Assembly (NCBI GenBank): GCA_033439255.1
Contig: CM065880.1
Location: 2,356,001-2,420,000 of the forward strand
Direction: 5' to 3'
Origin: Hericium rajendrae
Lineage: Eukaryota > Basidiomycota > Agaricomycetes > Russulales > Hericiaceae
DNA length: 64,000 bases
The notes under the pieces are model-generated. The model made no database searches, was not told where the DNA came from, and saw only the letters and a program-made list of their open reading frames with translations. Positions 11,929 to 64,000 of this stretch are shown in pieces. Position 1 is the first letter of the stretch; each line of letters opens with the position of its first letter. A program made the translations under genes and the position numbers.

Positions 11929-12374
11929 CATCTGAAAAATTAGAAATTTATATAGCTCAGTACTAAACTATATGCCCTCATATAGTGCTATGAGGTCTAT
12001 ATAGTCACCCTTGTACCTATGCAGAGCTATGGACATTATCATAGCCTTCATAGCAGCAGGTCAAAGGTATATAGATCTATGTACCTGTGAGCCATTGCTA
12101 TCATAGCTATGTACCACCACAGGCTTGCTATGGATTCTATCAGCCCTATGTTAGGTATGGTAGACTCCATAACGAGAAGTCAAAAAATTTATTATATCTA
12201 ACTCATTACTGGTACAAGGAATTATACAATAACTACATATACAAAAAGCAAACCCCAGGCAGCCATGCGCGCATGGCTAACGTCGGGTGCACCACGCCGA
12301 GGTCCGTGCGCATAGCGTTAGGTCGCGCGCAGATGGTGACAATGCGCGCGAGGTGAAGCGAGAGCGGAGAGGGT

Positions 12375-12560
12375 GTGGACACGGCGCGGATGGCGCGGAC
12401 ACGACGCGGACGGCGCGGACACGACGCGGACGGCGCGGACACGACGCGGACGGTGCGGACATGACGCGGACGGCGCGGACGGCGTGTGACACGGCGCGGA
12501 TGGCGCGGACACGGCGCTGCGGACGGCGCAGAGCGCGTGGACACGGCGCGGACGGCGTGG
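12375..12560. repeat. GC-rich minisatellite inside copy 0
   Basis: About eight tandem units of roughly 20 bp with the word GGCGCGGACACGACGCGGAC and variants. CpG is retained throughout, which suggests little cytosine decay in this copy. Confidence 0.75.
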
Positions 12561-13006
12561 AGGCGGCGGTGAGTGCACAGACACGGCAGAAACTGCGCAT
12601 GTGCGGCAGGGAGGGCATGCATGCAGCGGCGAGCGCACTGGGGGCGCACGGATGGCGCGATGGCGGCGCGGATGGCGCGAAGACAGCGCGGAATACGCAG
12701 GCCACGGTGCAGAGGGCGCAGGCGCGGCGATGAGGACACAGGCGCGGCGCGGAGGGCGACAGCGTGGTGTGGAGGGCGACAGCGTGGTGTGGAGGGCGTC
12801 GATGGGGCGCTCGGGGCTGTCGACGTGGCGCGCGGGGGTGGACGTGGCACAAAGAGCGGGAAGGCCGAGCACGCGCAGTCTGGTGGGCAGGAGGTGGATG
12901 GGCACAGGTGCGCGCAGTCCGAGCCACGCGCGGGCGCAGACGCACGTTGTCGGGGACATACGTGCTCGTCCGCGCGCGTGCAGGAACGGGCGGACGCAGT
13001 ACCACT

Positions 13007-13036
13007 CGAGTCCCGTTGCCAAGGCAACGGGACTCG
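13007..13036. promoter_or_regulatory. Perfect palindrome containing an RFX/Crt1-type X-box
   Basis: Arms CGAGTCCCGTTGCC and GGCAACGGGACTCG flank AA. The core GTTGCC-nn-GGCAAC fits the X-box consensus GTNRCC-N0-3-RGYAAC bound by RFX proteins (Crt1/Rfx1 in yeast). The same core recurs in other copies at 28396-28422, 30995-31018, 49723-49746, about 59851-59869 and 62867-62890. Confidence 0.6.
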
Positions 13037-13269
13037 ACGTTCGGTGTCGTGGCCGTGTCGGGGGTGCTGAGGTGGGGTGTGCATGAGGGATGGCGCAGGC
13101 TGTTGAAGCCGTGCGCGGGACGTTGGGGTAAGGCCGCGGAGCGTCGGAGCCACGCGCGGAGAACATCGCGTGTTGCGACGTGGCACCGATGCGGGGGATG
13201 CGGCGAGGAGGGCGGGAATGGGGAAAGGCGGCGATGGGAGGGTGGAGGCACGAAAGAACGAGAAAAAAT

Positions 13270-13302
13270 GAGAGTATCGCTCGGATAACGAGCGATACTC
13301 TC
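13270..13302. other. Conserved 14-bp stem-loop (stem-loop A)
   Basis: GAGAGTATCGCTCG, five bases, CGAGCGATACTCTC. Counterparts sit at 22123-22155, 26241-26266, 28240-28268, 31269-31296, 49211-49235 and 60138-60169, always just beyond a TACTAAY/TACTGAT-like branch motif when read in the direction of the GC-rich domain. Confidence 0.75.
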
Positions 13303-13736
13303 GGAATCAGTACAATAGAAACAAATATAGGTGCGTTTTTACTTACCTTGAGCCCTCCAAGCTTCTAACAGATCCTACAGGCCTTCGAATTGACGAGGAA
13401 CGAGGGAAACGAGGAGAGCGAGGTGGAGAGATGAACGGGAGTCATTGAGAAGTATGGAGCACAAGTCGAACGACGCGGCGCCTTAGTGCTCGAGCTATCG
13501 ATTGCGCGAGTTCAAACATCTCAAACATTGTTAATCGAATAAAATCACTATAATTTAGAAAAAAAAGACTACACATAAAATACATTCATACCATTCTACT
13601 ATATGAGCTACATGTCTAACTTATGTTCCGTACGCTACGAATCAGCAAATACAAGTTAACGAAATCTAATACTCAGTCTCTGACGCGGCGTCGGCAACGC
13701 CCGGCAGCCACGAATCTCGGCTTCGCCCGGGAATCG

Positions 13737-13744
13737 TATATAAG
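13737..13744 (+). promoter_or_regulatory. TATA promoter of the micro-exon transcript, copy 0
   Basis: TATATAAG follows a block conserved between copies (cggcaacgcccggcagccac, then ctcggcttcgcccggg). Homologous boxes: 21670-21677 (-), 25797-25804 (-), 27786-27793 (-), 31735-31742 (+), 48759-48766 (-), 60617-60624 (+). Confidence 0.6.
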
Positions 13745-14599
13745 GCTCGCGCGACGCGCGTTGCCTCTTGCTCTCTAACCCCCACCATCTCTCGCCACGT
13801 CGGCGTCGTCGTCGTCGTCGTTGCTTGCTCGCCGTTGCTCCTTTCTTGCTCGTCGTCGCTCCTTTCTTGCTCGTCGTCGTGCTTTCTTTGCTCGTTGTTC
13901 TCTTGCTCAATTATCTTAAGGTGTGTTGACTTTAATTTAATATTCTATGTTCTTTACTAATGCTCTCTCTAGTTATGTTTTTGTTATCTTCTTAAGTTAA
14001 GGTGAGTTGATCTTTTATTGTCTCTGTCTTTATGTCTATGTTATCTAATATTTTTGATCAATAGATTTTTGCTTTTTAGATTAAAGTAGGTTTTATTCAT
14101 TTGTTATCTTTTTGAATTGTGAGTATATATTGTTGTAGTAAATGATAAAGATTATAATAGATTGTGATGTTGTAATATATTAGATTGATCAATATGATAT
14201 AAAATTGGAATAATTACTTTCAAAATCATGTTTTGATATGATGTTTTAATAGTAATAATGAATATAAGATTTGCTTTATAGCTGGACAAAAATCTTGATA
14301 GTTTTGATAGATCTTATTACTTTGATAGATGTGCTAAGTTTACATATTGAGTATAACATGAGTAGGTAACATAGCTCTGATAGATTTAATAGCTAGGTAT
14401 CCTATAGTAGCTTCATAGTTAGCTACAATAGCTATGATAGTAGTTCATAGCACCTTCTTCAGCTCTGTAGCATCTCATAGCACTCCATAGCTCTCCCTTT
14501 GGACTATGAGGGCTATGTAGTAAAGGGAGGTGCTATGGGTCCATGACTCCTATATAAGATATGTAGAACTATGTAGAACCTGCAAATTTTTCAGATGAA

Positions 14600-15538: not shown

Positions 15539-15847
15539 AAAGAGACATGTTTAAGTGGACTAATAGTGACAGGTTTACAAGTGCATTCTAACCTTGTTCA
15601 GGACTGTTTGTTTTGTGGTATTGTCAGACATATTGTTTTGAGAGGACAAGAACAGGACAAGCAGACGGGACCCAGTAAAGGCGTTCTCGGTCTGCATGGA
15701 GGTGTCGCCAATATGTTGTCACAGTCACGCATCACGGTCACCTCGGATCGCCCATCCAGCGGCTATTGCCGGATGCTGTGTCTGCTAGCACAGTTGTACT
15801 GTTCCCCCTCCCATGCTCACTTCGTTGACATTGTTCGCCCACCCGGT

Positions 15848-18339: not shown

Positions 18340-18941
18340 TGGCCCCTGCCTTGTACAGCCTTCGACATCTCACGCCTGGCCCCAGCACCTCAAGCGTGCA
18401 CTCTGCTGCCTCGAGCCCATGCCTGGCTATCCCAAGCCCTTTGCCGCACCTCTAGCCACCCACTGACACCTCGCCACACCTTGCCCTCCTCCATGTGCCT
18501 CTCGCACAGACCCACTGCACCTCGTGTGTGTGCACAACTTGTTGCACCCTGTCAGTATGCATGTACTCACACGCGGCCTGATCTGTGCATGCCTGCAGTA
18601 TTTATGCTTGTAGTGTAGTTGTCTGTAGTAGTCAATATAATGAATATAATTAATTTTGACTTTGAAAATTTTGTACCTAAGTATCTAGTTGACTTGACAT
18701 AGTATTAGTAGTATTTATAGTACTCATAGCTCACCTTACTAAGTATGATAGTACTATATATTTCAAACTGCTGGCTATGAAAGCTATAGCAAGACTATAT
18801 AACTGACACTAGTAGCTATGGGAGCTATGGAAGCTCTCATAGCTCTACATAGCTAGATAAGCAAACTATATAGCTCTGATAGCTCAGTCATAGCACTCAT
18901 AATATAACCTGCAGCTATATAAATTTCAGTTTTCTCAGATG
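18340..18941 (+). mobile_element. Right-arm remnant of a CATCTGAG-family element
   Basis: A C-rich stretch (18340-18610) passes into AT-rich sequence with GCTAT/ATAGC words and ends in TTTTCTCAGATG at 18941, the family's right end. The arm resembles 29340-29678 of copy 1 (tgtagtagtc..., ctaagyaagtatgata). No partner left end is found upstream. Confidence 0.6.
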
Positions 18942-18943
18942 TA

Positions 18944-19195
18944 CACTATAAAGACCAACACTCCAAGATAAGATAACAAAACATACAAAGATAAGATGAG
19001 ATAAGATAAGATAGAACTTTAAAGATAAAAAAGATAAGATAAAACTTACTTCATAGATAAGAAAAAGCAAAAATAATCTAAAGGCAAAGTCAACAAATTA
19101 GTACACAAGATATAGATATAGAAAAATATAAGACTTACTAACTTAAGATAATAAAAGCAAAAATGTAAAAGTCTACAAAGAATAGTAGTGTCACA
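18944..19195 (-). mobile_element. Internal remnant of a CATCTGAG-family element (micro-exon part)
   Basis: The sequence aligns with 27415-27660 of copy 1, including AAAGCAAAAAT blocks (minus-strand TTTTTGCTTT micro-exons) and gataagataagata strings. The CpG in the micro-exon core has become CpA here, which suggests an older copy. Confidence 0.55.
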
Positions 19196-20696: not shown

Positions 20697-23600
20697 CATC
20701 TGAGAAATTTTGGGTAGCTATAGAGAGCTTTATATCTTATATAGGTTGCATAACTCCATAGCTACCCTCTTTTGTATATATCTGACCATAGAGAGTCCTA
20801 GTCTATAGAGTGCTATATAGCTACTAGAGATAGCTATAGAGTGTTATGATAGCTATAGAGCTACAAGGATAGCTATGATAGCTATAGAGCTATAGGCTTA
20901 GCTATGAGAGCTATGTAGTCTAACTCTACTACAAAGTCTATAAAGTCTATATTATCTACACTATGCTGGTTCACTATATATTATCTGTACACTATAAAGC
21001 TTACCTTGTCTATACTATGTTAGCTCATTATGTACTATCTGTATATTATACATTCATCATGTAAATTTGTAGCTTAAATAGAATATAAAACTTCATTATA
21101 GCACAACACAAATAGATTTATCATAACAAAAGTTAAGCACAAATTAAAATTTTATTTACTAACTACAACATCATGATACATTACTGTACTGCATTATATA
21201 AGATAGATATTAAGAAAACTTCTATAAAAATATAAGCATCAGTCAAGACTAATATAAAAGACTACAAACAGACTTACAATGACTACAAAAAGTGAAAATC
21301 TAATCAAGAAAAAAACAATACTAATATTAGAAGATAACAAAGATAACAGATAAAAGCTTACCAAAGTAATAAAAAAGCGAAAATCTAGACAACATGAAGA
21401 CATCAGTACAAGACATAACAAAGCTTACCTAGTAAATATACAAAGGTACTATAACAGATATGAAGATATTAGTACAAGATATAAGAGGCAAAGAATAAAA
21501 GCTTACCTTATAGAGATTGCAACGACGAGGAAGAAATGATGATGACAGAGAGAACAACGACAACAACGAAGCAAACGACGATGAGTGAGCAAACAACAAC
21601 AACAACGGCATCGACGTGGCACGAGATAGTGGGGGTTAAAGAGCAAGAGGGAAGGCACATCGCGCGAGCCTTATATACGAATCCCGGGCAAAGCCAAGAA
21701 TCGTGGCTGCTGGGCGCTGCTGAGAGGGACTGGCTGGCAGACTTGAGTAAGTTGATGCTGTCACTCAGGGATTCACGGTGCAGTATATCCAAAGTGTTCT
21801 CATGTATTCTAATTGAATGTATAATCTATCATTGCCATCTTTTTTCCTGAATTTATATGACTTTATTTGATTTGTTGAGGCTCGAACAATGCAACTTCGC
21901 TCGTTCGGTGGCTGAAGCACCGAACGTGCATTGACTTCCATAGTTATTCGTCCCTCTCGCTCTCATTCTTTGCAGTACCTCCTTCGCTCCTTTGCTCCCT
22001 CGCTCTTTCCTCCCTCGTTCGCCACGTCGTCCTCAATGTCGAAGACTAGGGGCTAAAGTAGCAGGCAGAGGGTAATCAGGTAAGCAAAACAAACTTATCT
22101 TTTTAGTTTCCGCACTAACAAAGAGAGTATCGCTCGTTTTTCGAGCGATACTCTCGATGTATCTCCTCCCTCGGCCCTTCATGACCCATCTGCACCCTCC
22201 GCATCCCCCTCGCACCTTCCGCGCTCCATCCACGTGACGTCCACACCTCGTTCGAGCTCTCACACCCTGCGTGGACTCCAGCATGCCACGACATCTGGCC
22301 GCAGCCCCAAACAACGGCCACGCCCCCGCTCCGCCTTTTGCGCACACCAACGTGCGCAGGGTCGCGGATTACTCACTCGTGCCCCACACACGCCGTCTGC
22401 ATGCCATCTGCATGCAGTCAACGAAGCATGCATGGGCCACGTCATCGGGCGTCGCCTCCACCTGCCCGCTTCTCTGGCAACACCCCGTCCCCGCACGTTC
22501 GAACAACACCCCGCGGCACGTTCGCGCGCCCACTCAAGGCCCACACAGCCATTCAAGGCCCCGCTTACATACACGGCACCCCGTGCGTAGTGAATGGCAT
22601 GGGTAACCCTTGGGTATTTTTGAGCTAACCCATACCCATACCCATCAAAACCCACACCCATGCTGTGGGTATGGGTTTTCTGTGGGTTGGGTATGGGTAG
22701 GATATGGGTTCATGGGTAGCTCTGGGTTTATGGGTTACCCAAGGGTTGTAACATGTATTGAGAGACTATAGTCTTGTTATGCCATAAATATCTCAATATG
22801 AGCAGACACACATCAATAACATTGTAGCAGTTAACACTGATCAGTCAAAAAAGTCAAGAAAGTTCTATTATATTGTATCTCTTTTTTATCTCAGACTCTT
22901 TATTATCTATTTTATTACCTCTTAGAGCATCTGCCATGTTAGCCACCCTTAATACATTAGTCTGATTGTTGCTTGATTTAGTATATAGTATGGTTTGTAT
23001 CTTGATAATATACTTTGAACTAATCATTCTCAATATAAAAAAACCCATGACCCATGGTATGGGTATGGGTTTTTCATGGGTTGCATAAGGCTGACCCATA
23101 CCCATACCCATGATACCCATACCCATGACCCACTGTGGGTTACCCATACCCATGCCATTCACTACCCACGTGCCCGCAACAATGCCCAGCATGCCCATCC
23201 ACGCATCTCACCGTCCCGCGTACGCCCTTGTCACCCCGCGCCCGCTTGATGCCCTCCGCGCGTGTAGAACGCGCCGCATGCTCGTTCAAGGCCCTGCGTG
23301 CACGCCGCGCACGGCCAATGCCCCGCGCGGGTCGTCGGTGGCCCTCACACCTGCATGACACCTCACACGCCCGCGCAGCACCCCCGCCCATGCACAATGC
23401 CCCGTATGCCCACTCAACATCCTCCGTGCCCGCAGAGATGCCTGTTCACGGGCGCGCACGGCCTCATTCTCGCGGCAACGCACACGTGATGCCCCGCATC
23501 CACACCATTAGCCCACCGTGCGTGCGAAACACCTCGCCCGCCCATGCCACACCCCCCTCGTGCTCAACGTCCCGTGCACCAGCTCAACGCTCTCCGTTCA

Positions 23601-24166
23601 CACAGAATGCCCCGTATCCGTGTCCAACGCCACGGCCTCGCATGCCACCCTGTACGCCCCGTCCTCGCGCACGATCCCCACCCTTGCGCACGATTTCCAC
23701 CCTCGCGCGATCCACCCCACCCCGCACGCGCCTACGCCCTCTGTGCGGTCAATAGGTGCCGGCGCTGGCGCTTGTCATAGTCATGATTAGATTTTTGTAA
23801 CTTTGTACTTAATTATGATGAGAATAAATAAATGGATTTGACTTATACCTCGGTGTGACTTATATCATATGTATACTTCGGATAATGTGTATAGTTGCTG
23901 TATATCTCATAGATGTCATAGCATATAGCTTACCCTCACAAGGTAATATATTTGACATAGGCTACATAGGCTCTATAGCATGCAGAGACATGTATATAGT
24001 TTCCATAGCTATACTAAGTAGCTATATAGCATACATAGGTGGCATATATGGCTATGTAGTCTATATAGCTACTATAGATCTATAGATCTGCATAAGACTT
24101 GTATATAGCTCATGTAGCTTAGGTAATTATGGCTGATAGCTATATAAATTTGGACTTTCTCAGATG
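20697..24166 (-). mobile_element. CATCTGAG-family element, copy 4, complete, with a nested MITE
   Basis: Ends are CATCTGAGAAATTT and TTTCTCAGATG; target duplication CT (20695-20696, 24167-24168) inside the Gypsy integrase region. The orientation is reversed: TATA promoter on the minus strand at 21670-21677, transcript toward the left end. Predicted micro-exons (minus): 21448-21429 (20 nt), 21384-21362 (23 nt) and 21299-21278 (22 nt), separated by introns with GTAAGC/GTAAGT, TACTAAT or CTGAT, and TAG. Toward the right are GTAAGC (22081 region), stem-loop A (22123-22155) and a GC-rich domain to about 23760, interrupted by a TA-flanked element. No ORF of substance. Confidence 0.8.
22590..23162. 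mobile_element. 573-bp MITE with TGGGTA-rich inverted ends, TA target duplication
   Basis: TA (22588-22589) and TA (23163-23164) flank GTGAATGGCATGGGTAACCC at the left and its inverted counterpart at the right (GGGTTACCC...ATGCCATTCAC). Subterminal parts are tandem TGGGTA/TACCCA hexamers in both orientations; the centre is AT-rich with no ORF. TA duplication fits a Tc1/mariner-type MITE. The hexamer is not the fungal telomere repeat. Confidence 0.75.
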
Positions 24167-42800: not shown

Positions 42801-43259
42801 GGGTAAGTCGGCTTGATTCGAATCGAAAGTTCGAACGAGTTGAGGTGCTCGTTGATGGGCACGGAATGAGAGCTCGGGAGGACACCAAAGAGCACTTGAG
42901 AGCACCTGAGAGCAATAAAAACACTGGAAGAGCGCGAAGGACCTGAGAGCTGAGAACGACGAGTGGATGACACGACACGAGCGTGCGAGAGCGACGAAAG
43001 ACAACGAGAGCTCGAAACAAGACAAAAAAGGACAGAGCAAGGAGTGCAGAGCAGCGTATGTCGAACTCACACTCTCATCACCAGGTGGAATGGGCCCAGG
43101 GGACTCTAGCTATGCCCCGAAGGAATGCAGATGAATGCTATGATGAGGCTACCTACTGTGACATGCTACAGACATGGGCTATGATGACTAAGCCCTCGGC
43201 TAAACACCACTGCTGACCCAACCTCTGGAGGGTGGGAGACCTAGTCTCCCCACTCCACC
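39892..43259 (-). mobile_element. Short-LTR retroelement encoding a single 1020-residue ORF, looks whole
   Basis: Two LTRs of about 175 bp (39892-40066 and 43085-43259) read identically and have TGGA...TCCA ends. On the minus strand a TGG-starting primer-site candidate follows the 5' LTR by 2 bases, and a purine run GGAGGGGGG lies next to the 3' LTR. The ORF 43070-40008 (minus) is uninterrupted. It begins hydrophobic, has MGKKKRTTTAAWRAAAAGS after about 90 residues, a long Pro/Ser/Thr/Ala-rich middle, and three modules of GxxEGxxxG repeats (AGLKEGRNAGFREGLEAG, AGRKEGRDAGYQEGLEVG, AGLTEGRNAGLQEGIATG). No reverse transcriptase, protease or integrase is present, so it is a non-autonomous LTR element. 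Identical LTRs imply recent insertion. The target duplication is unclear (about CGG). Confidence 0.75.
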
Positions 43260-51240: not shown

Positions 51241-51589
51241 GGCTTGGACGCAGGGTCGCGGCGCTGGGGTGCATGGGCGCGGGGCTGGGAGGTGTGGGGC
51301 TGGGACGCGCTGAGCTGGGAGGTGTGGGGCTGGGAGGTGCAGGGCTGGAGGTGCGGGCGCGATGCTGGGGTGTACGGTCATGGTGGTGGGACGGCGCGTG
51401 GGGCTGGGAGGCGCGCGGGGACTCGGGGTTGGGACGCAGGGCATGGGGCTGGCAGGGGGCTGGTACACGCATGCCTTCGGGTGAGTTTGACGGCGTGCGA
51501 TTGCGAACGCGGGGTCTTGTGCACCGGCGACTGCACCTTCATGGCGCGGGGAGTCGTCACACGCTATCGCACCCAAAACCTGTTTTGAG

Positions 51590-51968
51590 CATCGACAGGG
51601 TTAATTCAGCAATCATAGGCTCTAAAAGATCGAAGCACTTACCCATCATCTACCTCTATTCCATCCACCATCATGCGCACATTACTCAATCACTCGATAA
51701 TATTATATCAATAATCTCCCAGCACGTACTTATCCATTCATTCCATTCCACCTTTTCTCTTCAAGCATGAGACAGATGCATCCCGCGTACTTCCAATACC
51801 TCGTTGCATCAAGCCTACATCTATTCCAGACATCTACTATTGACACGCACATCTCACGTCCAACGCAAAGCTTGCAGCAGATGACTCGAGTCCAGAATCA
51901 ATGCACTCGACCAGTGGCAAAATATTCACTGTGACTCTGAATAATTCTATTAATTCAGAAAACAAGTG
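51590..51968. other. Spacer inside family F element, nothing recognised
   Basis: Mixed-composition sequence between the GC-rich domain and the LTR-like block; no ORF, repeat or RNA seen. Confidence 0.35.
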
Positions 51969-53372
51969 TCATGCACATTATTCATCAATTAGTCATACTT
52001 TCAGACTAAGAGAAGTCCATGGAATGTGACAGAATGTTCTAGAAATTCCAAGAACAACATTTGCACAGCCTCGCACAGCTTTACACAGCCTCACACAGCC
52101 CCATTGCACAATGTGATTACTAAGGCAGTGATCTGCTTATTCAGCTCATTAGAAATGCGATTACCAAGCAGGATTTTGGCTTATCAATGCAGGAATCTGT
52201 ATTATAAAGCAGAGATTTGGATTACAAAGATAGAAAAAGTGGATTACAAAGCTCATTTTGCCTTATAAATCATTGGAGAAAGTGCTAGAATGTGAAAGAA
52301 TATTAGTCAGCATTCCTATAATGGGTAGTTAGTTCCCACAGTAGCATAGACATGTACATATTAGGCAGTTGGTTCTCAGGCTTCCCCAGGGTATATAAGG
52401 AGCTGAACTGAGCCATCATGCAGATGTCTTTTCCCCCCCCTTTTCCCCCTTCCCTCCAATCAACTCTCATGTTTTCCTCCATATTGATTATTTCTCACTG
52501 AGCTCTTGACTGCAGCTTTCAGTTTGAGACAGATTGACTCTATCTATCTCCTCTGACAGGAAAGGTAGTATTCTCTTGTGTTTGCTTCTAGTTACCTTAG
52601 GCAGATCCTGAGTATAAAATCTTATCTGACATAAGAAGCTCAGACTGTGACTAAGTGACTCAGTCTCTAATCATTCTCATCTGCTATTACACATTCAAGT
52701 CTAGGATCCGACATCCTACAGTCTATCAGTATCAGCCAGTCAAGTCTAGGATCCGATATCCTACAGTTCACTCCCAGTATCAATCCAGTCCATTCCCTAT
52801 TGTGGGAACATTCTGCTTTTAGTCCCCTTAGCGTGGGAACCATCAGTCCCATTACATAAGCCAGTCTCAGACCAAGTCTCGGACCAACACAGCCTCAATC
52901 ATTATTACAGCACCACTACTCAAATCCCCCAGCATAACCCTCCAGTTTCAGTATCGATAAAATCCCAGAAATTCATCGATATTAGTTCATCTTCCATCAC
53001 ACCTATTCCCATCACACCAGCTAGCCAGCACTCCAGTTACATTTACTACAGAATTTACAGTCACTTTCGAGTACTATTTAGGCCAGCATCGACACTTGAA
53101 GTTATTCAATTATCTTCCAGCCAGTCAAGTCAACTCAGCCAAGTTGATATCACATTCATTAGCTCACCTGCCGAGGTTTATTTGTGTTTGTTTGTATAAG
53201 CCTTCTTTCAACTTAGAAGCCACAACATCACATTTCTATCATTCAATAGGCTATATAGTCCACCATCAAAGAAAGAAGAACACCATCCACCTCTCCCGAA
53301 CAACTAGGTACATCCGGGAAAGTAGGAAAACCTGATCGTATCTAGGATAGTGTGTTACTGAGGTATACCAAC
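51969..53372 (+). repeat. Solo LTR-like block of a Gypsy-type element (fossil)
   Basis: It starts TGTCATGCACATTATTC, like the Gypsy LTR start TGTCATGC. It has a TATA box (gggtatataagg near 52391), a pyrimidine-rich stretch and, near its end, gaacaactaggtacatccgg, comparable to gaacaactaggagttctcgg of the 34.1-kb LTR. TTCGGAACCCATC after 53372 resembles a primer site. No internal domain or partner LTR follows. Family membership is inferred. Confidence 0.45.
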
Positions 53373-54088
53373 ATTACTTCGGAACCCATCATTGTCACGA
53401 CAACGCGCGTTTGGAAGCGTGATGGAAGTGGGTAGATGAGCAGCGGAGGCATCGTGGTGCATGCAGCGTGCCACGTCATCGCGGTACAAGGCTGAAGGAA
53501 TCGAACTTCGTTAGTAAAGATATACATGGGAGAAAAGAAAAGAAGAACTTACGAGGTATGAGGCTATTGAGCCTCGTACTACTGCACCCCGCTTGAGGGA
53601 GGGAGGGAACAGAGATAGCCTCGGCCAACAAGATTGTGGCACGGTTCGGAAGTTGCCGAATTAGGCGACGTACCTCGTCCCGAGTCGTCGAAGAGGGATT
53701 TTAAGAACAACTAAATTTACTTAAACCGTAGAAATAATAACTAGTGTGTAGATAGTATGAATACAATGAAATACAAAGTTTGGTAAGGAAAGAATGCAAT
53801 GGAGGAAAGAAAATCCCAAGCCATTGATAAGAAAGTCTAAAATGTGCGTAAAGACTAAACACGTCAAGCTCAAATCGATGCCTCGGGCACGCCGGGCACA
53901 AGATTCGAGCTGCAATTGTGCAGCGCAACATGCTCCCATGCTGCATTGGTTTATTACAGTGCACTAAAATATATATAACGAATGTACTTAGACTTTATTG
54001 TAATTTTAAGTGGCATAGATGTTTAGGATCTGGCAATATACGTGAACTTTCGGTTCCATGAGCTGTATTTTGTGCGTATCTCGGGCCT
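53373..54088. other. Unassigned part of family F element
   Basis: It contains a short inverted repeat (gaggctattgagcctc near 53562) next to a minus-strand 5' splice-like signal (acttac), then AT-rich sequence. No coding region recognised. Confidence 0.3.
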
Positions 54089-57000
54089 CAAGCTCTGGGA
54101 TCGAGTCTAAAAAATTCCAAATCTCGTACACACATTATTGAGGGCATCAAAAACGATTCTGCACAGCTAGATAGGTAAGAGTTTCCGAAGTGAAGCCTCT
54201 GCTACATGAATTCGAGTTAGGGTTACTATAGGGTTACAATAAGTCGTTCAATGTGGCTTGAATTATTCTCTAAATCATTCGAAAATTTGTATATACAATG
54301 TGTTATACTATAGGTACATAATAATCTCTCCAATCATGGGGAAGACATTCCAGAAGTCGTGCGGGGTAACACCCCTCCTCCAGCGTCGGGCACCTCGGTC
54401 TCAGTCGCCGATTCTCGGCAGTTTCCGAGCCGCGTCACAGCACGCATCACAGCACGTATGCGGCTCGCCTCACTCCCTAGCCCTCGCACTCATTCTCCTC
54501 ACTCTCTCACCCTCGCACTCACGCGCATCTCCGCGCTCTTCGCGCCCCTCGCACCTCTCGGTATCCGCTCCCCGTGCTTCCACCCATTCACCGCCCTCCC
54601 GGACGCCTCTCCACGCCCTCCACGGCTTCCAGCAGCCGTCCGCCCTCTTCCACGTGCCTCGGACACGCATAGAAGCACGTGCAAGTCGATCAGGACCAGC
54701 ACGAACACGCGTGCAACGACACAGACGCGCACCCGATACCCGCGGTCGTACACACGCAGCGCAGGCACTCACGGCCACGACAACACACCGCGCGCAGCCG
54801 CCCGGCCCCTACGCGTCGCGTATCGCATCCTCGGCACCCCTACACGCCGCATGTCACGTCCGCGCGGCTCTCAACACCCCTGCGCACAACGCACAGCACT
54901 CCGGCACCGGTACGCAGAGCGTTAGGACACGCGCGAGCACGGGAAGAATGCGCACGGGCACGCGGAGGACGCGCACGGCCCAGCGTGGCCAGTCCGCTCG
55001 ATGCATAGCACAGACCCACGACGGCCCAGCCACGGCCCATGGCCCACAAGCCGCAACCCGCACACCCCAGCAACGACCCGCGTCCCCAGCAATGGCGCCG
55101 GGCTCCCAGCACCCGCACCACATGCCCAGCACCCCGCGTCGCATACCCATTGCCTACGCGCAACAACAACGGCGCGCGGGCCCCCTCACTCAGCCCCCCA
55201 ACGTCCGCGATGCACCCTCGCGATGAGCAGCGGCGTCGTCGGCAGCGCCAACGGCGCTGACGACACGCATCGCGGCAACAGTGCAGGGAGTGAGCGACGG
55301 CGGCGGGGAACGAGCGGCGTGCGGCGGGAACGAGCGGCGTGCGGCGAGGAACGAGCATGTGCGGCGGAGAGCGAGCGGTATGCGGCGGGGAAGAGAGGCG
55401 TGCGGCGTGCGGCAGGTGCAAGCGCATGCGAGCGAGCGTGGTAGCCGAGGTCAGGCGGCGCGCGTTGACGAGGTCGGGCGAGGCGGGCAGCAGCGTGTGC
55501 GTAACCGAGGTCGGGCGGGACGGGCGGCGGCATGCGCGTAGCCGAGGTCGGGCGGGACGGGTGGCGGCATGCGCGTAGCCGAGGCGGGAAGCGCGCAGGG
55601 CGGTGGATGGTGCCGAGCGGAGCCACTTGAGTAGGCGCGCTAAGCGTGCGTAGCGAGTAGTGTACGGCCCAGACTGTATTATATTTATAATGATTTTTTT
55701 TGGATTTATAATGAGCAATTTGAATGGTTCAGATTGGGTCCTGAACCCTCCCTTATTATTGGTACAGTTTGCAACCTTCCCTCCTGTTATTACTGGTACA
55801 GGTTTATAATGGGTTACAAGGACGCCTCCTACACCCCAGACACGCGCACAACAGCCCACGCTCGCGTGCAATGCCTCGAACAGCGAGCAATGTCCCGCCC
55901 TCGTGCGCCATAACCAGCCCGCACACGGAACGCCTCGGACATTCGCCACAGTGAGCCTGCGCACGCAACATCCCGCATGCGTGCGCAACACCCCGTACGC
56001 CCGTGCCAAGCCAGCACGCGCACAAGCCAGCATGCGCGTTCAATGTCCCACCCACCTGCTCAACGTCCCACCTACCTGCTCAACCCCTCGCATGTGTGCA
56101 AAGTCCCCGCACATGCACAATACCCGCCCCCGCGTGACGATGCCCTGCAGGTCCGCGTGATGCCCCACGTCTGCATCCAACACCTCGCATTCCCATGCAC
56201 ACGCGTGCCACACCTGACATGCCCGCACACCCGCTCAACATCCCGCATGCCCGCTTAGCGCCCGGCATGCATGCGCACGTCGCTCGGTGCGTGCGTAGAA
56301 CGCCCCGCACGCTTGCGCGATGCCCCGCATCTGCAACATGGCGCGCTCGTGCCTACCCCTCGTGTATGCGTGTGACGCCTCGCCCGCGCACGCATGCCCT
56401 CCGCGCCCTCCACGCCTGCGCACTTAACGGGCGCCGGCTCCTGATGGTGCTTGACGGCAGGCGCCGGTGCTCGACATAGTAATAATTAGTTTTTTTTTAA
56501 ACCTTTGTATCTATGTAGCTATGACTAAAAATATAAATGGATTTGACTTACACTTTGTGTGACTTATACCATGTTTATACTCTGGATAATGTGTATAGTC
56601 ACTGTATATCTCACAGATGTCATAGCATATAGCTTACACTTACAATGTGATATAGTGGATGTAGGCTACATAGACTCTATAGCAAGTAGAGACATGTTCA
56701 TAGCCTCCATAGCTATGCTAACTGGCTATGTAGGCCTACATAGAAGGCATAACTGTGTTAGCTAGCTATATAGACCTACATAGATGGCATAGATGGCTAT
56801 ATAGTCTATATAGCTAATATAGACCTATATATCTGTATATGTTGAATATATAGCATCTCATAGCTTAGATAATTGTGGCTGATAGCTATATAAATTTGGG
56901 ATTTTTCAGATGGAGTTGTAGAATGTGGACACTTTATTATCCGAGAAGCCATTATCAAATCCTGTGAAGAAAAGATTCATAAATGGCCTCAAAAAGTCAC

Positions 57001-58566
57001 ACAGGCATTCTTTGCTGACCGAATTACCGTTAGTCAATCAACAGGATTTTCCCCCTACTACCTCCTTCATGGATGTCATCCGGTACTTCCATTTGACCTC
57101 ACCGAAGCCACATTCCTTGTCAAAGGATTTAAATCAGGAATGGAGGAAGCCGATCTTCTAGCACTTCAAATTTGCCAATTGGAGAAGCGGCCATCAGATG
57201 TAGCCAAAGCAGCTTTGACCCTCAAGCAGCATAGATTGGGGTCAAAAGAGAAGTTTGAACGACGATTTGCATGAAAAATGATAACAGAATACTATCAGCC
57301 CGGAGACCTAGTCCTGATGTGCAACACAGGCATAGAGCTTAGTGCTGATCGAAAGGCAAAGCCTCACTATCTTGGTCTATATGTCGTGGAAAGAAGGACA
57401 AAGGGAGGTTCATATGTGCTACAAGAACCAAGTGGAGCATACCTTAAATATGCAAGTGCAGCCTTTAGGCTCCTACCTTACATCGCTCGATCGGGATCAG
57501 AGCTTCCCAAGATAGGTCGAAAACTTGTGGAGGCCGAAAGTTCAGATTCTGAGGAATGTTCTTCCGAAGATGGATCTTCTCATGACAATTAGGACGGTCG
57601 CAACTGGGGACAGTTGCCATTCAAGTTCCCCGCAGATGTCACGCTCGCAACATGTTTCGAGTGCTAACATGAAGAAAAGGGCAGCGCATCACTCATTTCG
57701 CTTATAAAATGAGAAGAAGCAACGTCATGTAAGAATTTGCCAACCTGCATCAAAACCATCCCACAAACATGCTGCACTCTCCCTAAAGCCTTATTCACGC
57801 TCCCTCTTGACTCCACCCCTCATGCTCCAACGCATCATGGCCTGGTTCGATTCTCTTCTTAATCCTGCTCCAGAACCTCGCCAGCCTGCTCCCACTGAGA
57901 ATCTCCCTCCTCTCTTCCTAGCAGTCCATCATGATTCCCTGCGAAGCGTCACTACCGAGAGACTCAATTTTTACCTCGGAAGGAATCTCATCACTACCAA
58001 CCCTAGATACCGTCTAACGGTTCTCGACGGGCCAGAGCCACCTGACCCTCGACGAATTCTTGAAGGTATGCAGGACATCGCCGACCAGATATCCATCACT
58101 GCACATCGTCAGGAGCAGGAGATCGAGACCGAACTGGTCTTCGATGACCGTTCCTTTGTAACGTTGACTGATACGGATGTAGGGGACCTCCGACTGGAGG
58201 TAGAAAGGCATGAGAATGACGACATCCCCAGCATCATGGCCGCTGCATTCCCTGCCACGCTCTCTGCTGCCCAATTCCCTCCTTCCATTCCGGCCACCCC
58301 GAGCGCTCCCGCATTAGCTCCACCCCCGCCTACGCCAACACTTCCTGAGATCAGTACCGACCCGATGTTCCATGCCCCTGGTATCATCACCATTATTCCC
58401 AAAGGGCCCTTCAGCCACATCTACGCTCGACAGTTCCATCAGTGCACCGGCTATGTCTGGGCCCCCTCCTCTGTTGATCTCCTTTTTAACTTCATGACCG
58501 TCCGGCTCATCACCGGAAACCTGCACTTCCCCTGGATCTCAGTCGTTAAGCCGATGATGCTCATTT

Positions 58567-61493
58567 CAAATGAGAAAATGAAAATTTATATAGCAGCAAG
58601 TGCTATTATGGGTCCTATGGATAAGCTATAGAGGCTATGTGGCTAAGCTATGCAGCTATGAAGGGCTATGGGAGCTATGGTAGTCCCCATAGCATGAAGT
58701 GTCAAAGACATAGGGTGACATAGCCTTCATAGCCAGGAGTGTCACATACATAGGACTATCATACTTACTTAAGGAAGCTACATGTACTATAGCTACTATA
58801 ACCACTATCATAAGTCAAGTAGGCACACAAGATACTGAATCAAAATTGTACTATATTCAAGGCTAGACTATGACAAAGTGGCTACGAAATCTAGCAGACT
58901 AGTAAGGAAAGGTCCCAAATGGACCTCGCACCCTCGCGCACCTTGTGCATCGCTAGTTATTGCATGCGCACGGTCGCGCATGGCCAAACATGAGTTGGCG
59001 CGATCGTGCGTGGCCGTGCGCATGGCGGAGCCGCCGTCTGCGGGCGGAGCGTCGGCGCACAGGTCATGCGCGGTACGGGGCGAGGTGCGCAGGTCGTGCA
59101 AGGCCCGCGCGCAAGCTGGTGACCATGCGCGGACTCTACGGACTGCGTGGTCGCGAGCTTGCATGCGGATGCTGGCGCGGACGTGCCTGCGCCCCCGCGC
59201 GCCGTTGTGGGGCAAGCGCGCGTTCGCGGGACCGGCGCCGTCACGTATTCACATGCAAGAGCGCATGCGCGCGCTAGAGGCCGTTCGCGGCGTGCGCGTG
59301 CAGCTAGGATCTCGCTTGGACTTGCAACCGTGCGTCGCCGTGCGCGCGTTCGGGAGTGCGTGCGTGCGCTGACGAGGCCATTCGCGCGCGCACGGCCACG
59401 TGTCGTGTCCGCGAGCGTGGTGCCGAGGGCGCGGGCGTGCTGGAGCATAAAGCTCGTGAGATGGGGGTCGCGCGGGGGCCCGGGCCTGTTGAGGGTGCGC
59501 GGATGGGCATGCGAGGGGCGCAAAGGGCGCGGCAGGCCGAGCACTACGCCAGCGAGGTGCAGCGGCCGTGGCGAGGATGCGCGCGCAGTCAGGGCCTCGT
59601 GCGGGTTTGCACGCCGTTCGTCACCATGCACGATCGCACGCGGGAGTGCGTGCACGCGCTGACTAGGGCTGTCCGTGGGGGTGTGTGGCCGTGCCTAGCC
59701 ACGCGTCGTGGCCGCGAGCTTCTTGTCGACGGTGCGGACGTGTTGGTGAGCGGAAATGGTCAGATGATGGACCCGCACACCCTGTTGAAGGCGTGCGCGG
59801 GTTGTTGATGGGATGCAAGGACGCGGGAGGCCAAGCGAACGACGTCGCGCCCCGTTGCCACGGCAACGAGGCAACGACAACGCGGACGTGGATGCCGTCG
59901 TCGGCGAATGGGGCAACGGGAGGCTGGGAGCGTGGACGTGGGCAAAATGGGTCGACGCGCGAGCAGTCGAGCTTGCGCGCACTTGGTCGGGTCCGTACGC
60001 AGCTGTTGGTGACGCGCAGGGCGTTGGGGCTGCCGGCGACGTGTTCGAGATGCGGGTGGGGTGCTAGCGACGTGGCGGAAAGAAGGCGATGGGGGAGGGG
60101 AGGTCGACGATGGGGCGCGTCGCGGGTGTCGAAGAACGAGAGTATCGCTCGAAAACGAGCGATACTCTCTTTATTAGTACGAATAATATCAGTAAAAAGT
60201 CTGAATAAACTTACCTTTACCCCTCTATCCCCTATCGAGACCCTCCCGCGTTCGATCCGATGAGTTGGTGAGAAGAGAGACAGCGGAGGAACGAGGAGAG
60301 AGGAAGGTGGTGGTAAGAATACTATGAGAGTCGAACTTCGACGCGCCTTCGAGTGCTTCAGCTGCCGAACGCGCGCGAGTTCGAACGTTTCGAACTTAGT
60401 AAATCGAATAAAATCTATTAAATTCTGAGAAAACGATGGCAGCCAGCTTTCATTTATTCAATTGGATCATATGAGCTGAATATCTAACTAAGCTACGATA
60501 ACCTACCGGGCAACGAAGTGAACCTAGGGAAATCTGGCACTTAGCCTCTGACGCGAGTGCTCGGCACCGCCCGGCCCGGTCTCGGCAGCAACATTTGGCG
60601 CTCCGATCGCCACGTCTATATAAGGCGTGCGCGGCGCGCTTTCTCTCTCTCTTCCCTACCACTATCATCCCTCGTCTTTCGTTGCTCTCTCTTCTCTTGC
60701 CTCAACTCTCTAATGCTTGGTAAGTTATTGTGTTGTTGCTTTATTGTTTCATTGTTCACTAACCCTATTGTTCTTTGTAGACTTGTATATTTTCGCTTTT
60801 ATTATCTTAAGTAAGTCTTATGTTTTTCTATATCTGTATCTTATATACTAATTTGTTGACTTTGCCTTAGATTATTTTCGCTTTTTCTTATCTATGAAGT
60901 AAGTTTTATCTTATCTTTTTATTATTATTGATCTTTAAGCTTTAAGTCTTATCTTATCTTATTTTTGAATCTTATCTCATCTTATCTTTGATATATTTTG
61001 TTATCTTATATTTGGTGCATTTTGTTATCTTATCTTGAAGTGTTGGTATTAATAGAGTAGTATAGCTATGTAATGATGCTTGTAGCTTTGTATTAAATGT
61101 GTTGTAATTTAATATTGTTTGAAATATAATGCTTTTAAATTTTCGATGTTTTGAATGTTTATTTTTATATTTGAATGAAAATTTTGGCACTCTTGAGCAG
61201 CATACAAGACATAGGTGATATAGAGTAGATAGCAGCCTTACTAGCTAGACATAATATGATAACAGAGATATACCACATAGCTGACATAGCTATGATAGCT
61301 GTTATATGCTATAGCAGCTATGATAGCTATGATAGCTTATAGTCTATACTATGATAGCTATGATAGCTATGATAGCTCTATATAGATTACCTCACTACTA
61401 TGGAGTAGCTATGTAGAAAAGAGGACTCCTATGGCCCTATCAGAGCTATGTAGGCTACATAGTGTCATATACCACTGGTCCTTTTCTCAGATG
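58567..61493 (+). mobile_element. CATCTGAG-family element, copy 5, complete, in the right LTR
   Basis: Ends are CAAATGAGAAAATG and TTTTCTCAGATG; target duplication TT (58565-58566, 61494-61495); the empty site is in the left LTR near 32919. The GC-rich domain (58900-60070) is followed by an X-box-like palindrome (about 59851-59869), stem-loop A (60138-60169), a minus-strand 5' splice-like signal (about 60211) and promoter TATATAAG (60617-60624). The clearest micro-exon series is here: intron 60720-60780 (61 nt, CACTAAC, TAG), exon 60781-60810 (30 nt), intron 60811-60870 (60 nt, TACTAAT, TAG), exon 60871-60898 (28 nt), then GTAAGT. Confidence 0.85.
60617..60898 (+). ncRNA. Predicted spliced micro-exon transcript, copy 5
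   Basis: A TATA box, a pyrimidine-rich leader, and then two canonical introns bracketing 30- and 28-nt exons, each containing TTTTCGCTTTT. Copy 1 has the same structure on the minus strand with only a few changes in the exons. An ATG just before the first intron would open a short hydrophobic frame (M[L/F][D/N]LYIFAFIIL) in copies 1 and 5, but other copies lack an equivalent frame, so a non-coding RNA is more likely. Predicted only from splice signals and conservation. Confidence 0.45.
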
Positions 61494-62929
61494 TTGCAAA
61501 GGCCAGTTCATCTTGTTGATCTCGGACATCGAAGGATCCTGCACCTATGGCGCTATCAAGGAACTCCTCTCGGTGACGGATACCTGGGCCGTTTGGAGAG
61601 TAAGACGTATGAAGGTTGTGGACGATCTCGGGCCTGATTGGGGGGAGGAGCCAGCCAGCCCTGATCCCGATTCCACTTATGGATCTGGGTGCATCACCGT
61701 GGTCGTGCCACGTCATTGGTGCATCGGAGAAGGAAGAGAGAGGCAGAGGCTTACCAGAGACGGGGCAGAGGCAAAGGATCGGCTCAAGCCTTACGATCCA
61801 CTGGACCTTTTTCACTGCATATACGAGGCCTCCACATATGCGACATCCTACAGCGGCCACTGCGAGCCTGCAGTCTTTGATCACATGCGCAAGGCCTGCC
61901 AGATCAAGAAGATCACCATCGAGGCTGGAACTGCGAGGATGGATGTCGATGTAAAGGAGTGGGTTCGGAACGAGCCTCCTCGGGCCGAGTTTCATCCGAC
62001 CATAGGAGACCCTTACGCCTAAAAGGGACTGGTCATGTTCTTTGTCGTATGTTTCCTGCACTCTGTCTTCGTCATGATGCTACATCACCTATGTTCTCTC
62101 ATTTTCCTTCTGATTTGTTTGGTCTCTGACTCATACGTCTGAGCGTTGACTCATTATGACTCTTACCTTCGTTTGACTCTTCCTGACTCACTATCCTGAC
62201 TGACTCATCTCCTAGTCACCTACTTCGACTCACCCTTACTATACATGACTAGGAATGACTCACTCATTTCATCTATCCCTTTTGATACATTTCTTACCCA
62301 CGCAGCCATAGGAGCTCTTAGGGTATATAAAGGCTGTTCCTGTAACACCAAATTCAAGTATCTTTGCCCCCAGTTTGTACGTCAGAATCCTCTAAGGTTC
62401 TCATCTACAATCAAATTCTGGTCAAGTTGCTTCACAAGCGCTTTCAATCCACGTTATTCTATGCATTCACATTGATGTCCAATCCACAAAGATACGAATC
62501 CAAGCAGTTATCATTCCACGTATACGCACGCTCAGTCCAATCATCAATATTCACATCCTACGAGTCATCGTACTTTTGATCATTGTCCATCGAGTGACAG
62601 TGTTCTACGAACTTCTTCATCGCATCACATACCCTCCACCTCTGTCTCTCACAGCCATAATCCTTGGCAAGTCGCATTCACACCAGAAGTAGAAGACAAA
62701 TCCATCCCTCATCGAACAACTAGGAGTTCTCGGAAAAGTTACCGGAAAACTCAGACACCCCTAGGTCGGAAACCACTTTTCGGCGTGACACCGCCATCTG
62801 CACATTGTGTGTGTAGGCAATGTCGCAGCCTGCACTGTTGACGTCCACTGGTCACTGCATGGTAGTGTCCCATTGCTATGGCAATGGGACTCAGGACGTC
62901 ATTCACATGCACGCTCAGCAACCTGCATG

Positions 62930-63720
62930 CACGTCCAGTACCCCGTGCCCATGCTCAATGCCCCACACACATGCTCGACACTCTGCACCTGCACTCGACG
63001 TGCAGCATCCACGCTCGATGTGCCACACCTCCTCGCAGCACCTCGTGCCCATGCTCAACACCCTGCACATGTGCTCAACGCCCTGCACACGTGCTTGATG
63101 CCCTGCACCTGCACTTGACGTGCAGCATCTGCGCTTGACATGCTGCACCTCCTCGCAGCACCTCGTGCCTGTGCTCAACACCCCGCATGTGTGCTCAATG
63201 GGTCGCACATGCACTCAATGCCCTGCACATGCACTTGACGCCTCGCACACATGCTCGACACCCCACACACATGCTCTGCCCCACACATGCACTCGATGCA
63301 CAGCATCTGTGCTCGATGTGCTGCACCTCTCCGCAGCACCTCACGCCCGTGCTCAATGCCCTGCACACATGCTCAACACCCTGCATGTGCGCTTGACGCC
63401 CTGCACAATGCTCGATGCCCTGCACACATGCTCAATGCCCCGCACCTGCACTCGACGTGCAGCATCCGTGCTTGATGTGCCGCACTTCCCCGCAGCATCC
63501 CGTGCACATGTATAATGCCCCAACATGCACGCTCAATGACTCGCATGCAGCTCCATATGCCACATGCATGTGCAGCATGCCGTGCATACCCAATGTCCTG
63601 CGCACATATCCAACGACCTGCACGCATACCCAACAACCCGCGCCCATGTTCAATGACCCGCACCCATGCTCAATGTGCTGCACCTGCAGTCGATGTGCTG
63701 CATGTGCGCGCAGCACTCGC
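62930..63720. repeat. Degenerate 20-bp tandem array in the GC-rich domain of copy X
   Basis: Some 35 loosely conserved units around CACATGCTCAACGCCCTGCA. The same word pattern, with CpG retained, forms the GC-rich domains at 23.2-23.75 kb and 55.84-56.44 kb. Here CpG is largely replaced by TpG/CpA. Confidence 0.65.
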
Positions 63721-64000
63721 GTGGAGGTAGAATGCCCCCAGACGCTTCTTGAAGACTCCGCGTGTGCATACGATGTGCTTATTATATACCTTATATACCT
63801 TGTCATAATGTAATGGCCTCGAATATAATTTTTTTTTGGACTTGATCACTCTGGTATCTAGATGGCTTACTATAGGAATCATGGTGACCAAAGCTGCCTA
63901 TAGGGACCCTATAGCATTCTATAGTATTCATAGTGCCCTCTTACAAGTACATAGCTCTATATATGTTGCACTTCCTGCTATGGCAACTATCATAGTCTAC

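Follow-up and report, generated by a model that had tools for sequence, protein, structure and literature searches.

Non-autonomous DNA transposons with CATC-type ends in Hericium rajendrae share a conserved internal unit that may encode a structured RNA

Introduction

Non-autonomous DNA transposons, which are usually derived from autonomous ones, are usually seen as passengers that play no active part and are recognised by their ends. Defective CACTA/EnSpm elements (such as dSpm) possess short terminal repeats, subterminal word arrays and short target duplications (2-3 bp for CACTA), and are mobilised in trans; Pack-type elements are non-autonomous and carry captured host genes, while MITEs are short (under about 800 bp) and internally featureless. 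PlavakaB, a fungal, CACTA-related group of the CMCT clade, is described in section 3.2.2 of Kojima 2025 (PMC12730594) as having 5'-CATCA..TGATG-3' termini and duplications of 2 or 3 bp, and the passages of that source on related groups assign CAC..GTG ends and 3-bp duplications to fungal EnSpm families, and 7-8 bp duplications to KDZ members.

The elements analysed here, in a 64-kb stretch of Hericium rajendrae DNA (hereafter “the window”) and elsewhere in the genome, resemble dSpm-type elements in their short terminal repeats, subterminal arrays, short duplications and presumed mobilisation in trans, but differ from these in their CATC rather than CAC ends, in duplications of mostly 2 bp, in the absence of CpG from their ends and in an interior which, as far as tested, holds no trace of a transposase gene. 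Like Pack-type elements they are non-autonomous and have a GC-rich interior that differs among copies, yet the one copy tested (E4) shows no sign of recent gene capture; unlike MITEs, they measure 2.6-3.5 kb and contain a conserved unit. Two short elements of the same genome, one of 401 bp (CATCAGGAACC) and a 585 bp palindrome, share CATCAG ends and 2-bp duplications, but remain below 0.6 kb, whereas the unit-carrying elements are mostly of 2.6-3.5 kb. The likeness to PlavakaB as portrayed in the consulted sections of PMC12730594 encompasses CATC-type ends, 2/3 bp duplications, fungal hosts and the abundance of Plavaka genes in this genome; the main family differs in that it has CATCT rather than CATCA and no transposase, and in carrying a TATA-intron-hairpin unit which the PlavakaB description in those sections does not mention. 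A literature search of partial coverage, exclusive of Repbase, retrieved no description of the end sequence or of such elements.

Results

Copies, ends and target duplications

The original prediction placed six complete copies in the window, all of which are present, although the fifth starts at 47809 and not at 47819, a position 10 bases inside the element. These copies are E1 (11929-14597, minus strand, 2669 bp, CATCTGAAAAA ends, its unit on the minus strand), E2 (20697-24166, plus strand, 3470 bp), E3 (26962-29678, plus strand, 2717 bp), E4 (29898-32687, minus strand, 2790 bp), the enlarged E5 (47809-56912, plus strand, 9104 bp) and E6 (58567-61493, minus strand, 2927 bp), and their respective duplications AA, CT, GA, CA, GA and TT are exactly those that had been predicted. 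For E3, E4 and E6 (starting at 26962, 29898 and 58567), sister sequence within the window crosses the join gap-free with 97.0-98.5% identity (empty sites at 57921-58319, 58138-58537 and 32719-33118, respectively), three of the six copies; no sister empty site for E1, E2 or E5 was found in the DNA compared. Exact empty sites and a TT duplication also accompany an element located inside a Plavaka gene (L045:5394-8773). Each element possesses two distinct end types, designated A and B, and the window furthermore contains a B-type end of a partial copy (18685-18941, strand unassigned) adjoining an internal piece (18962-19188), and the conserved unit of another partial copy with no recognised ends (25771-26281, plus strand; hairpin 1 at 26241-26266; nhmmer E 1.1e-77).

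The terminal 11-mer CATCTGAGAAA occurs at 547 places (269 + 278) in the 46.8 Mb genome as compared to 4 (1 + 3) for its backwards-read control, though 547 places do not equate to 547 element ends because the 11-mer is also found inside the unrelated repeat CATCTGAGAAAGTTGCTCGCGC (window 8628; L033:589). As had been predicted, the family is a real, numerous and non-autonomous one with short terminal repeats. It has many copies, mostly of 2.6-3.5 kb (about 3 kb), including near-identical ones: the copy in L029 and one seen in L003/L004 share 99.1-99.4% identity, which reflects recent movement. A longer, transposase-encoding copy, for which a search had been proposed, was not found among the elements examined.

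Target duplications were scored for neighbouring perfect CATCTGAGAAA ends in plus/minus arrangement less than 10.2 kb apart on contigs 1-2, drawn from the first 100 of the 547 places. This yielded 28 pairs, of which 25 entered a first set, two were added and one (C2:282788/292907) was excluded as its left 11-mer is part of another repeat; the element within the latter interval (L033:7627 to L034:1008) has a TC duplication. Within the first 31 pairs (6 from the window and 25 genomic), 30 display an exact 2-bp and none a 3-bp duplication (P ~2e-35 at 1/16 per pair, the pairs being not all independent). The two added pairs comprise C1:56705/63527, with a 2-bp AA duplication, which is not independent because its left flank is identical to that of the C1:44609 copy, and C1:296510/304864, with a 3-bp match (ATT) and no 2-bp one. 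Over all 33 end pairs, 31 therefore have exactly 2 bp, one has 3 bp and one (L071/L072) has neither, such that the predicted 2-bp duplication holds for nearly all pairs but was worded too strictly. The prediction that no fixed target word exists is borne out by twelve different dinucleotides in the first 31 pairs (TT being commonest, 8/30); beyond the duplication, the preferred flanking base is C on its left and G on its right (14/31 each, P = 0.0006).

CATC termini are present at 61 of the 62 ends of the first 31 pairs, the sole exception being CAAATGAG, the left end of E6. The element termini are CATCTGAG/CATCAG and not CAC; terminal CATCA is seen in the sister copies L045 and L090 and at one end of L091/L089, while the main family (CATCTGAG, CATCT) is not letter-for-letter PlavakaB. 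GCTAT/ATAGC words peak subterminally at both ends of the profiled copies and in both orientations, as had been noted before.

Distribution of CpG

The original prediction had missed the two end types, the absence of CpG from both of these and the conserved internal unit. In 40 ends of 50 bases, no CpG was observed against 61 expected; in the shoulders of nine copies the CpG values are 8/115 and 2/89, without TpG/CpA excess, and in the centre 1157/970. Deamination as the present cause of the CpG-free ends is disfavoured, since the ends lack the TpG/CpA excess that is seen in the centre of the L029 copy (CpG 0.60, TpG 2.58), an argument which concerns a present cause and not an old, equilibrated loss. 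CpG-free ends would permit transposase binding whatever their methylation state.

A conserved internal unit

A TATA box is common to all nine full copies, as are a stretch resembling an intron, a hairpin that shows compensatory changes, and a GC-rich tail that seems not to code for protein. Read from end A to end B, the order is TATA, approximately 400 bases, GTRAGY...TACTAAY-like motifs, hairpin 1, often hairpin 2, and a CpG-rich, C-rich tail. Recognition of the TATA, splice and branch motifs is by sequence match alone; the distance from TATA to splice site is 389-417 in nine of nine copies (for L045 after leaving out a 585-bp insert), the hairpin site lies 10-14 bases past the branch-like motif, and GT is absent from the 5' splice site in two of 22 aligned copies (AT in L006, GC in L008).

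In the window the unit is located at 13244-13769 of E1 (minus strand; TATA 13737-13743, 5' splice-like 13340-13347, hairpin 1 13273-13299, hairpin 2 13015-13028), at 21645-22180 of E2 (plus strand; TATA 21671-21677, 5' splice-like 22079-22086, hairpin 1 22126-22152, hairpin 2 not found) and at 27761-28297 of E3 (plus strand; TATA 27787-27793, 5' splice-like 28195-28202, hairpin 1 28241-28267, hairpin 2 28403-28416). E4 carries it at 31242-31766 (minus strand; TATA 31735-31741, 5' splice-like 31334-31341, hairpin 1 31270-31295, hairpin 2 31000-31013), E5 at 48734-49254 (plus strand; TATA 48760-48766, 5' splice-like 49167-49174, hairpin 1 49211-49235, hairpin 2 49728-49741) and E6 at 60112-60649 (minus strand; TATA 60617-60623, hairpin 1 60141-60166, hairpin 2 59854-59867). 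An nhmmer search with the unit gave 24 matches that reach the hairpin, representing 23 distinct places (the L005 match, being the L006 site cut by the locus end, was dropped), and hairpin 1 is present in all 23, though decayed in some. A sister family whose ends are likewise of the CATC type has the whole unit, and a third family has the intron-hairpin part of it. No Rfam match at gathering score was obtained in the window; positions 30200-32000 gave a single match of E 0.086 (19.9 bits versus a cut-off of 49).

Genome-wide, the hairpin 1 pattern was detected at 337 sites versus 0 in the control, and the hairpin 2 core at 109/124 versus 0/0. In the hairpin 1 alignment (A1, which omits L003, a copy of L029 at 99%), 93.4% of cells are paired, falling to 27-52% when the alignment is slid by 1-3 columns, and 23 two-sided changes are seen as opposed to 7.2 in shuffled alignments, with none of 500 shuffles reaching the covariation score; further pair types do not exceed shuffles (14 versus 14.1, reached by 358/500). 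For hairpin 2, 14 of 23 instances were accepted; among the misses, L003 and L008 end soon past hairpin 1. The hairpin 2 alignment (A2) is 91.8% paired, a percentage that leans towards the hairpin because nine of 23 candidates were excluded (seven with fewer than 8 of 12 core letters; L008 and L031, with 8 of 12, as unrelated by eye), and it has 18 two-sided changes versus 6.9 shuffled, again with 0/500 shuffles reaching the score, while further pair types are barely above shuffles (31/500). Copying from a few masters could mimic conservation.

These hairpins might alternatively be palindromic DNA sites for a dimeric protein (the transposase or a host factor) instead of RNA structures, a reading which we regard as unlikely. 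Perfect dyads co-vary at the DNA level too, and hairpin 1 shows no G-U excess (in columns 77-87, 6 G-U versus 10 mismatched cells), but neither the length nor the sequence of the loops is constant, the site is positioned 10-14 bases past the branch-like motif, and the inner 11 pairs of hairpin 2 hold 14 G-U cells versus 2 mismatches.

Contents of the GC-rich centre

That the GC-rich second exon encodes a fast-evolving protein appears very improbable. Sense-strand open frames of 412 and 341 codons, each from a different copy, do exceed the 95% point of shuffles, all three sense frames of E1 are open throughout, and the E1 and L033 frames have residues in common around hairpin 2. However, stops are not depleted (109 seen versus 116 expected), indels are mostly of 1-2 bases, with one-base events dominant and no period of 3, and six of eight copies lie within the 95% point of a rough 4-base-block shuffle that is uninformative for E1. 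These tests of stops, indels and period gave no sign of protein constraint, and a coding second exon was rejected on stops and indels, the two long-frame copies being exceptions by ORF length.

Of ten ORFs, one taken from window 40008-43070 and nine from window elements or longer copies, none matched a Pfam transposase. The long open frames of L032 and L033 proved to be part of nested LTR-flanked elements. Captured host genes were likewise unsupported for E4, the one centre tested: most of its 46 matches are confined to the hairpin 2 area, and the long non-self matches reach no more than 76-78% identity; of the four places that extend over 750 bases or more, the fourth has 69%.

Transposase partner and superfamily placement

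As judged from sequence, the ends combined with 2-3 bp duplications match PlavakaB best; the predicted CACTA-like nature holds for the wider CMCT clade but no more narrowly, and no formal PlavakaB membership is claimed. Duplications of 2 bp in 31 and 3 bp in one of 33 pairs agree with the 2 or 3 bp of PlavakaB, for which reason the single 3-bp pair leaves the likelihood of that match unchanged. Subterminal repeats in both orientations are shared with EnSpm. A true CACTA/EnSpm (Transposase_21) or KDZ transposase as mobilising enzyme seems very unlikely: both are found in the genome (at least 31 and at least 172 matches, respectively) and one of 33 pairs would suit the 2-3 bp of CACTA, yet CATC ends and 2 bp in 31 of 33 pairs depart from the CAC..GTG ends and 3 bp given for EnSpm, and from the 7-8 bp for KDZ, in the relevant parts of PMC12730594. 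No Transposase_21 lies between perfect paired ends on contigs 1-2 or, among the matches listed, on contig 3. One Transposase_21 gene neighbours an unpaired end (C2:4510991), at a distance of 18 bases.

The genome contains at least 132 Plavaka matches; none falls in the window, where PF18759 (Plavaka transposase), PF18758 and PF02992 are absent among the matches listed (best candidates scored only); together with the absence of a Plavaka protein trace from 12 elements (best tblastn E 0.23), this accords with the predicted lack of a transposase. No element combining these ends with a transposase was found: none of five Plavaka loci on contigs 1-2 lies between perfect paired CATCTGAGAAA ends (mutated ends would escape), and an automatic terminal-repeat search around Plavaka genes was uninformative. 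In ATAGC profiles of five 10-kb Plavaka loci, L036, L037 and L042 show no array, while L043 and L045 show arrays at element ends. In L039, a CATCAGCAAAGGC end that is also present at another Plavaka locus, L038, begins exactly where the flank ceases to match L045, at approximately 2 kb from a Plavaka gene; no counterpart on the other side was found.

The elements could also be ordinary non-autonomous derivatives, the unit being a remnant of the 5' leader that once preceded a transposase gene, since lost, and a functionless hitch-hiker. TATA and intron would be expected of such a leader, the origin of non-autonomous elements from autonomous ones is the established rule, and an intron-hairpin piece in L047 (7632-7800) lies ~1.2 kb downstream of Plavaka homology on the same strand. 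We consider this origin improbable, given that hairpin pairing is kept through compensatory changes, that three families differing in their ends contain the intron-hairpin part (in one case as two divergent pieces), that the unit or a piece thereof in seven of 13 ten-kb Plavaka loci is by position never directly ahead of the transposase frame, and that the 12 elements lack a Plavaka protein trace.

Discussion

We consider it likely that these elements are non-autonomous cut-and-paste DNA transposons which are moved in trans by a PlavakaB-kind transposase encoded elsewhere, and which carry a structured RNA gene. The Plavaka transposase would recognise the ATAGC words and the element ends, and the unit may constitute a Pol II gene with a spliced intron, the product of which would act as a structured RNA. 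Such a gene would consist of a promoter, an intron, one or two compensatory hairpins and a CpG-rich tail, placed between CpG-free, putatively transposase-binding ends. Absence of a transposase is not absence of content, because the interior holds a conserved TATA-intron-hairpin unit with compensatory changes. It is possible, if doubtful, that the RNA helps the element, either by maintaining both transcription and an unmethylated state of the centre, or through interference with RNA-based silencing.

Tentatively, we propose that a clade of fungal non-autonomous transposons without a protein of its own keeps an RNA gene. The RNA would be a selfish trait, for example a structured anti-silencing or chromatin-opening RNA, which three or more families of differing ends have in whole or in part. 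Gene capture by other fungal transposons, of TET/JBP genes, is reported in the abstract of PMC12730594.

The hairpin signature, with its 337 sites, offers a simple handle by which to follow the family, and the combination of CpG-free ends with a CpG-rich centre allows the response of fungal transposons to DNA methylation to be tested directly. If true, a structured RNA gene under selection would represent a novel means by which a passenger acts to its own benefit.

Copies, termini and target site duplications

Five of the six complete copies that the original prediction had placed in the window lie where it put them, namely E1 (11929-14597), E2 (20697-24166), E3 (26962-29678), E4 (29898-32687) and E6 (58567-61493), while the remaining one, E5 (47809-56912), exists with a left boundary that had been misplaced, its true start being 47809. 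Each element possesses an A end and a B end, these being two terminal types which share only approximately 11 bases (31 end pairs compared), and the density of ATAGC/GCTAT words peaks in the outermost few hundred bases at both ends. A genome search with the end sequence covered the whole assembly (46.8 Mb, 19 contigs; the window corresponds to G000:C3:2356001-2420000), whose abundant Plavaka and KDZ genes suggest a mushroom-type fungus, and retrieved CATCTGAGAAA at 547 places versus 4 for the reversed control. This count overstates the true element ends, because an unrelated repeat, CATCTGAGAAAGTTGCTCGCGC (window 8628; genomic locus L033:589), carries the same 11-mer.

Flanks were compared for a first set of 31 end pairs (6 from the window, 5 from longer loci and 20 others, all genomic pairs being from contigs 1-2), in 30 of which the two flanks carried the same dinucleotide; a shared trinucleotide was seen in none. 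The duplicated words in these 30 pairs were TT (8), GA (4), TG (4), TA (3), AA (2), TC (2), CG (2) and, once each, GC, AC, GT, CT and CA, so that tabulation reveals 12 different dinucleotides and no fixed word. Two further pairs presented AA and a 3-bp match (ATT), respectively; the predicted 2-bp duplication of variable sequence is thus borne out by 31 of 33 pairs, the exceptions being the ATT pair and one pair (L071/L072) with neither length. Immediately outside the duplication, C is found on the left in 14/31 and G on the right in 14/31 (P 0.0006), i.e. a weak C-NN-G insertion preference.

Uninterrupted sister sites for E3, E4 and E6 are present within the window, since all three lie in a repeat that is present twice (26.7-33.1 kb and 57.9-61.9 kb), each copy providing the empty sites for the other. 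For the element at genomic locus L045, empty sites occur in many other Plavaka loci, the filled site reading AAAAATTT, element, TTGACTTG versus AAAAATTTGACTTG when empty.

The window also holds an LTR-flanked element (39892-43257) whose direct repeats (39892-40065 and 43084-43257; 174 bp, 100% identical) enclose one long frame of 1020 aa on the minus strand with Yae1_N-type matches, which we would guess to be 'Gag-like'; nested in loci L032 and L033 are related frames flanked by repeats of 159 and 167 bp. Between elements lies a retrotransposon remnant, a frame (45856-47382) encoding reverse transcriptase and RNase H domains (PF00078, PF17917, PF17919).

Element layout and base composition

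Read from the A end, eight aligned copies share one order: first an AT-rich shoulder (600-800 bases), then a conserved block and an intermediate stretch, next a C-skewed, CpG-rich GC-rich part of approximately 1 kb or more that is scarcely alignable among these copies, and last an AT-rich B shoulder. In nine copies the two shoulders contain 8 CpG where 115 are expected and 2 where 89 are expected, and 40 further 50-base ends contain none versus 61 expected. TpG and CpA are not elevated in the shoulders, and the CpG dearth is therefore unlike ongoing methylation-driven loss; the centre of the copy at locus L029, unlike the shoulders, does show methylation-type CpG loss.

A conserved intron-like unit with two hairpins

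The conserved block contains a TATA box (TTATA[TA]A) in 9/9 copies, with AGGTRAGY located 389-417 bases past it in 9/9, followed in 8/9 by a TACTAAY-like branch motif, hairpin 1 beginning 10-14 bases further; in a wider alignment of 22 copies, two are without GT at the 5' splice-like site. A profile search with the block yielded 24 matches extending to the hairpin, representing 23 distinct places (including the eight copies that built the profile), where hairpin 1 is present at all 23, in some cases decayed, and hairpin 2 (core GTTGCC.TGGCAAC) was accepted in 14. Pairing in the 14-bp stem of hairpin 1 is maintained through two-sided changes (columns 81/104 being AU in 13, GC in 6 and CG in 3 sequences), and hairpin 2 exhibits the same compensatory type of change.

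For covariation score and cells with two-sided change, both hairpins beat 500/500 shuffles and every slid version, though kinship between copies can inflate the shuffle test and the hairpin 2 alignment (A2) had been selected for the core of that hairpin. The count of further pair types was not above shuffles for hairpin 1 (358/500 match it) and barely above them for hairpin 2 (31/500). Genome-wide, a relaxed hairpin 1 pattern was found at 337 places versus 0 in the reversed control, and the hairpin 2 core 109 and 124 times on the two strands versus 0; on contig 1, 10/27 hairpin 1 sites are located 1.25-1.64 kb inward of a perfect CATCTGAGAAA end and 17/27 are not.

Indels among related copies are mainly of 1-2 bases, substitutions among them lack a period of three, and the number of stop triplets in the centre agrees with expectation (109 observed, 116 expected). 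In 2/8 copies a sense frame surpasses the 95% point obtained with a rough shuffle, and E1 is open in each of its three sense frames. The ORFs tested against Pfam gave no transposase match, a search for a Plavaka protein trace in 12 elements found none, and no Rfam match reached family thresholds.

Sister families with other ends

Two sites without the CATCTGAGAAA end were analysed. The L090 element (2613 bp, left end CATCAGAAAAATC, duplication TG) harbours the entire unit, and the element across L091 and L089 (4015 bp, ends CATC[AT]GGAAAAAGTG, duplication GA) contains the intron-hairpin part twice (model positions 416-531 and 417-515), as two pieces pointing outward from the centre, the TATA part of the model being unmatched in both and the hairpin of the second being imperfect; each is followed by a GC-rich stretch, mostly C-rich in that piece's direction. 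At least three families, all ending in CATC[AT]G and making 2-bp duplications, therefore share the intron-hairpin part. Another repeated hairpin, GTGGGA..TTTTGCTGCAGCAAAA..TCCCAC, occurs near both inner borders (L089 203-239 and 3437-3473) of this double-unit element, with a variant form at its centre.

Candidate mobilising enzyme

Kojima 2025 (PMC12730594) describes ends CATCA..TGATG with 2 or 3 bp duplications for PlavakaB, TGT..ACA with 2 bp for PlavakaA, CAC..GTG with 3 bp for fungal EnSpm, and 7-8 bp duplications for KDZ members; among these four groups as there described, PlavakaB is nearest to the present family. A CATCAGCAAAGGC end approximately 2 kb from a Plavaka gene starts exactly where the flank ceases to match L045; no counterpart on its other side was found. 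Short elements ending in CATCAGG likewise generate 2-bp duplications. No transposase was found between CATCTGAG ends, so that mobilisation in trans by PlavakaB is an inference and the family is not formally assigned to that group.

A 401-bp element (L040:8859-9259 and L044:904-1304; ends CATCAGGAACC, duplications CA and TG) sits, in its L040 copy, within a CATCTGAG-type element, the empty site being visible in L029. A near-palindromic element of approximately 585 bp (L045:6397-6977, L048:9178-9758 and L040:2518-3099; ends CATCAGGAAGGTTG) is 98-99% identical between copies, with duplication TA in all three. One CATCTGAGAAA end (G000:C2:4510962-4510972) is separated by 18 bases from a Transposase_21 match (C2:4510991-4511332) in a 485-aa open frame, which may reflect insertion at a transposase gene.

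Proposed working of the element

Non-autonomous elements and PlavakaB ends are already known, and none of the papers searched was found to describe an element of this kind in which an intron-hairpin unit is conserved. For M. oreades, PMC8290104 and PMC9674265 report Plavaka and KDZ elements, nonautonomous relatives, and active copies with low CpG methylation, the former paper including a supplementary figure on terminal motifs.

Judging from the ends and duplications, a transposase would bind the CpG-free, ATAGC-rich shoulders and cleave at the CATC ends, with insertion at cuts staggered by 2, occasionally 3, bp. The motifs and covariation point to a promoter between the shoulders whose transcript would be spliced once and fold at hairpins 1 and 2. 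The CpG richness of the centre suggests that young copies normally keep it unmethylated and active, and that it decays upon methylation, as in L029. The RNA may be maintained by selection, and we favour for it a part in expressing the element itself or in evading silencing.
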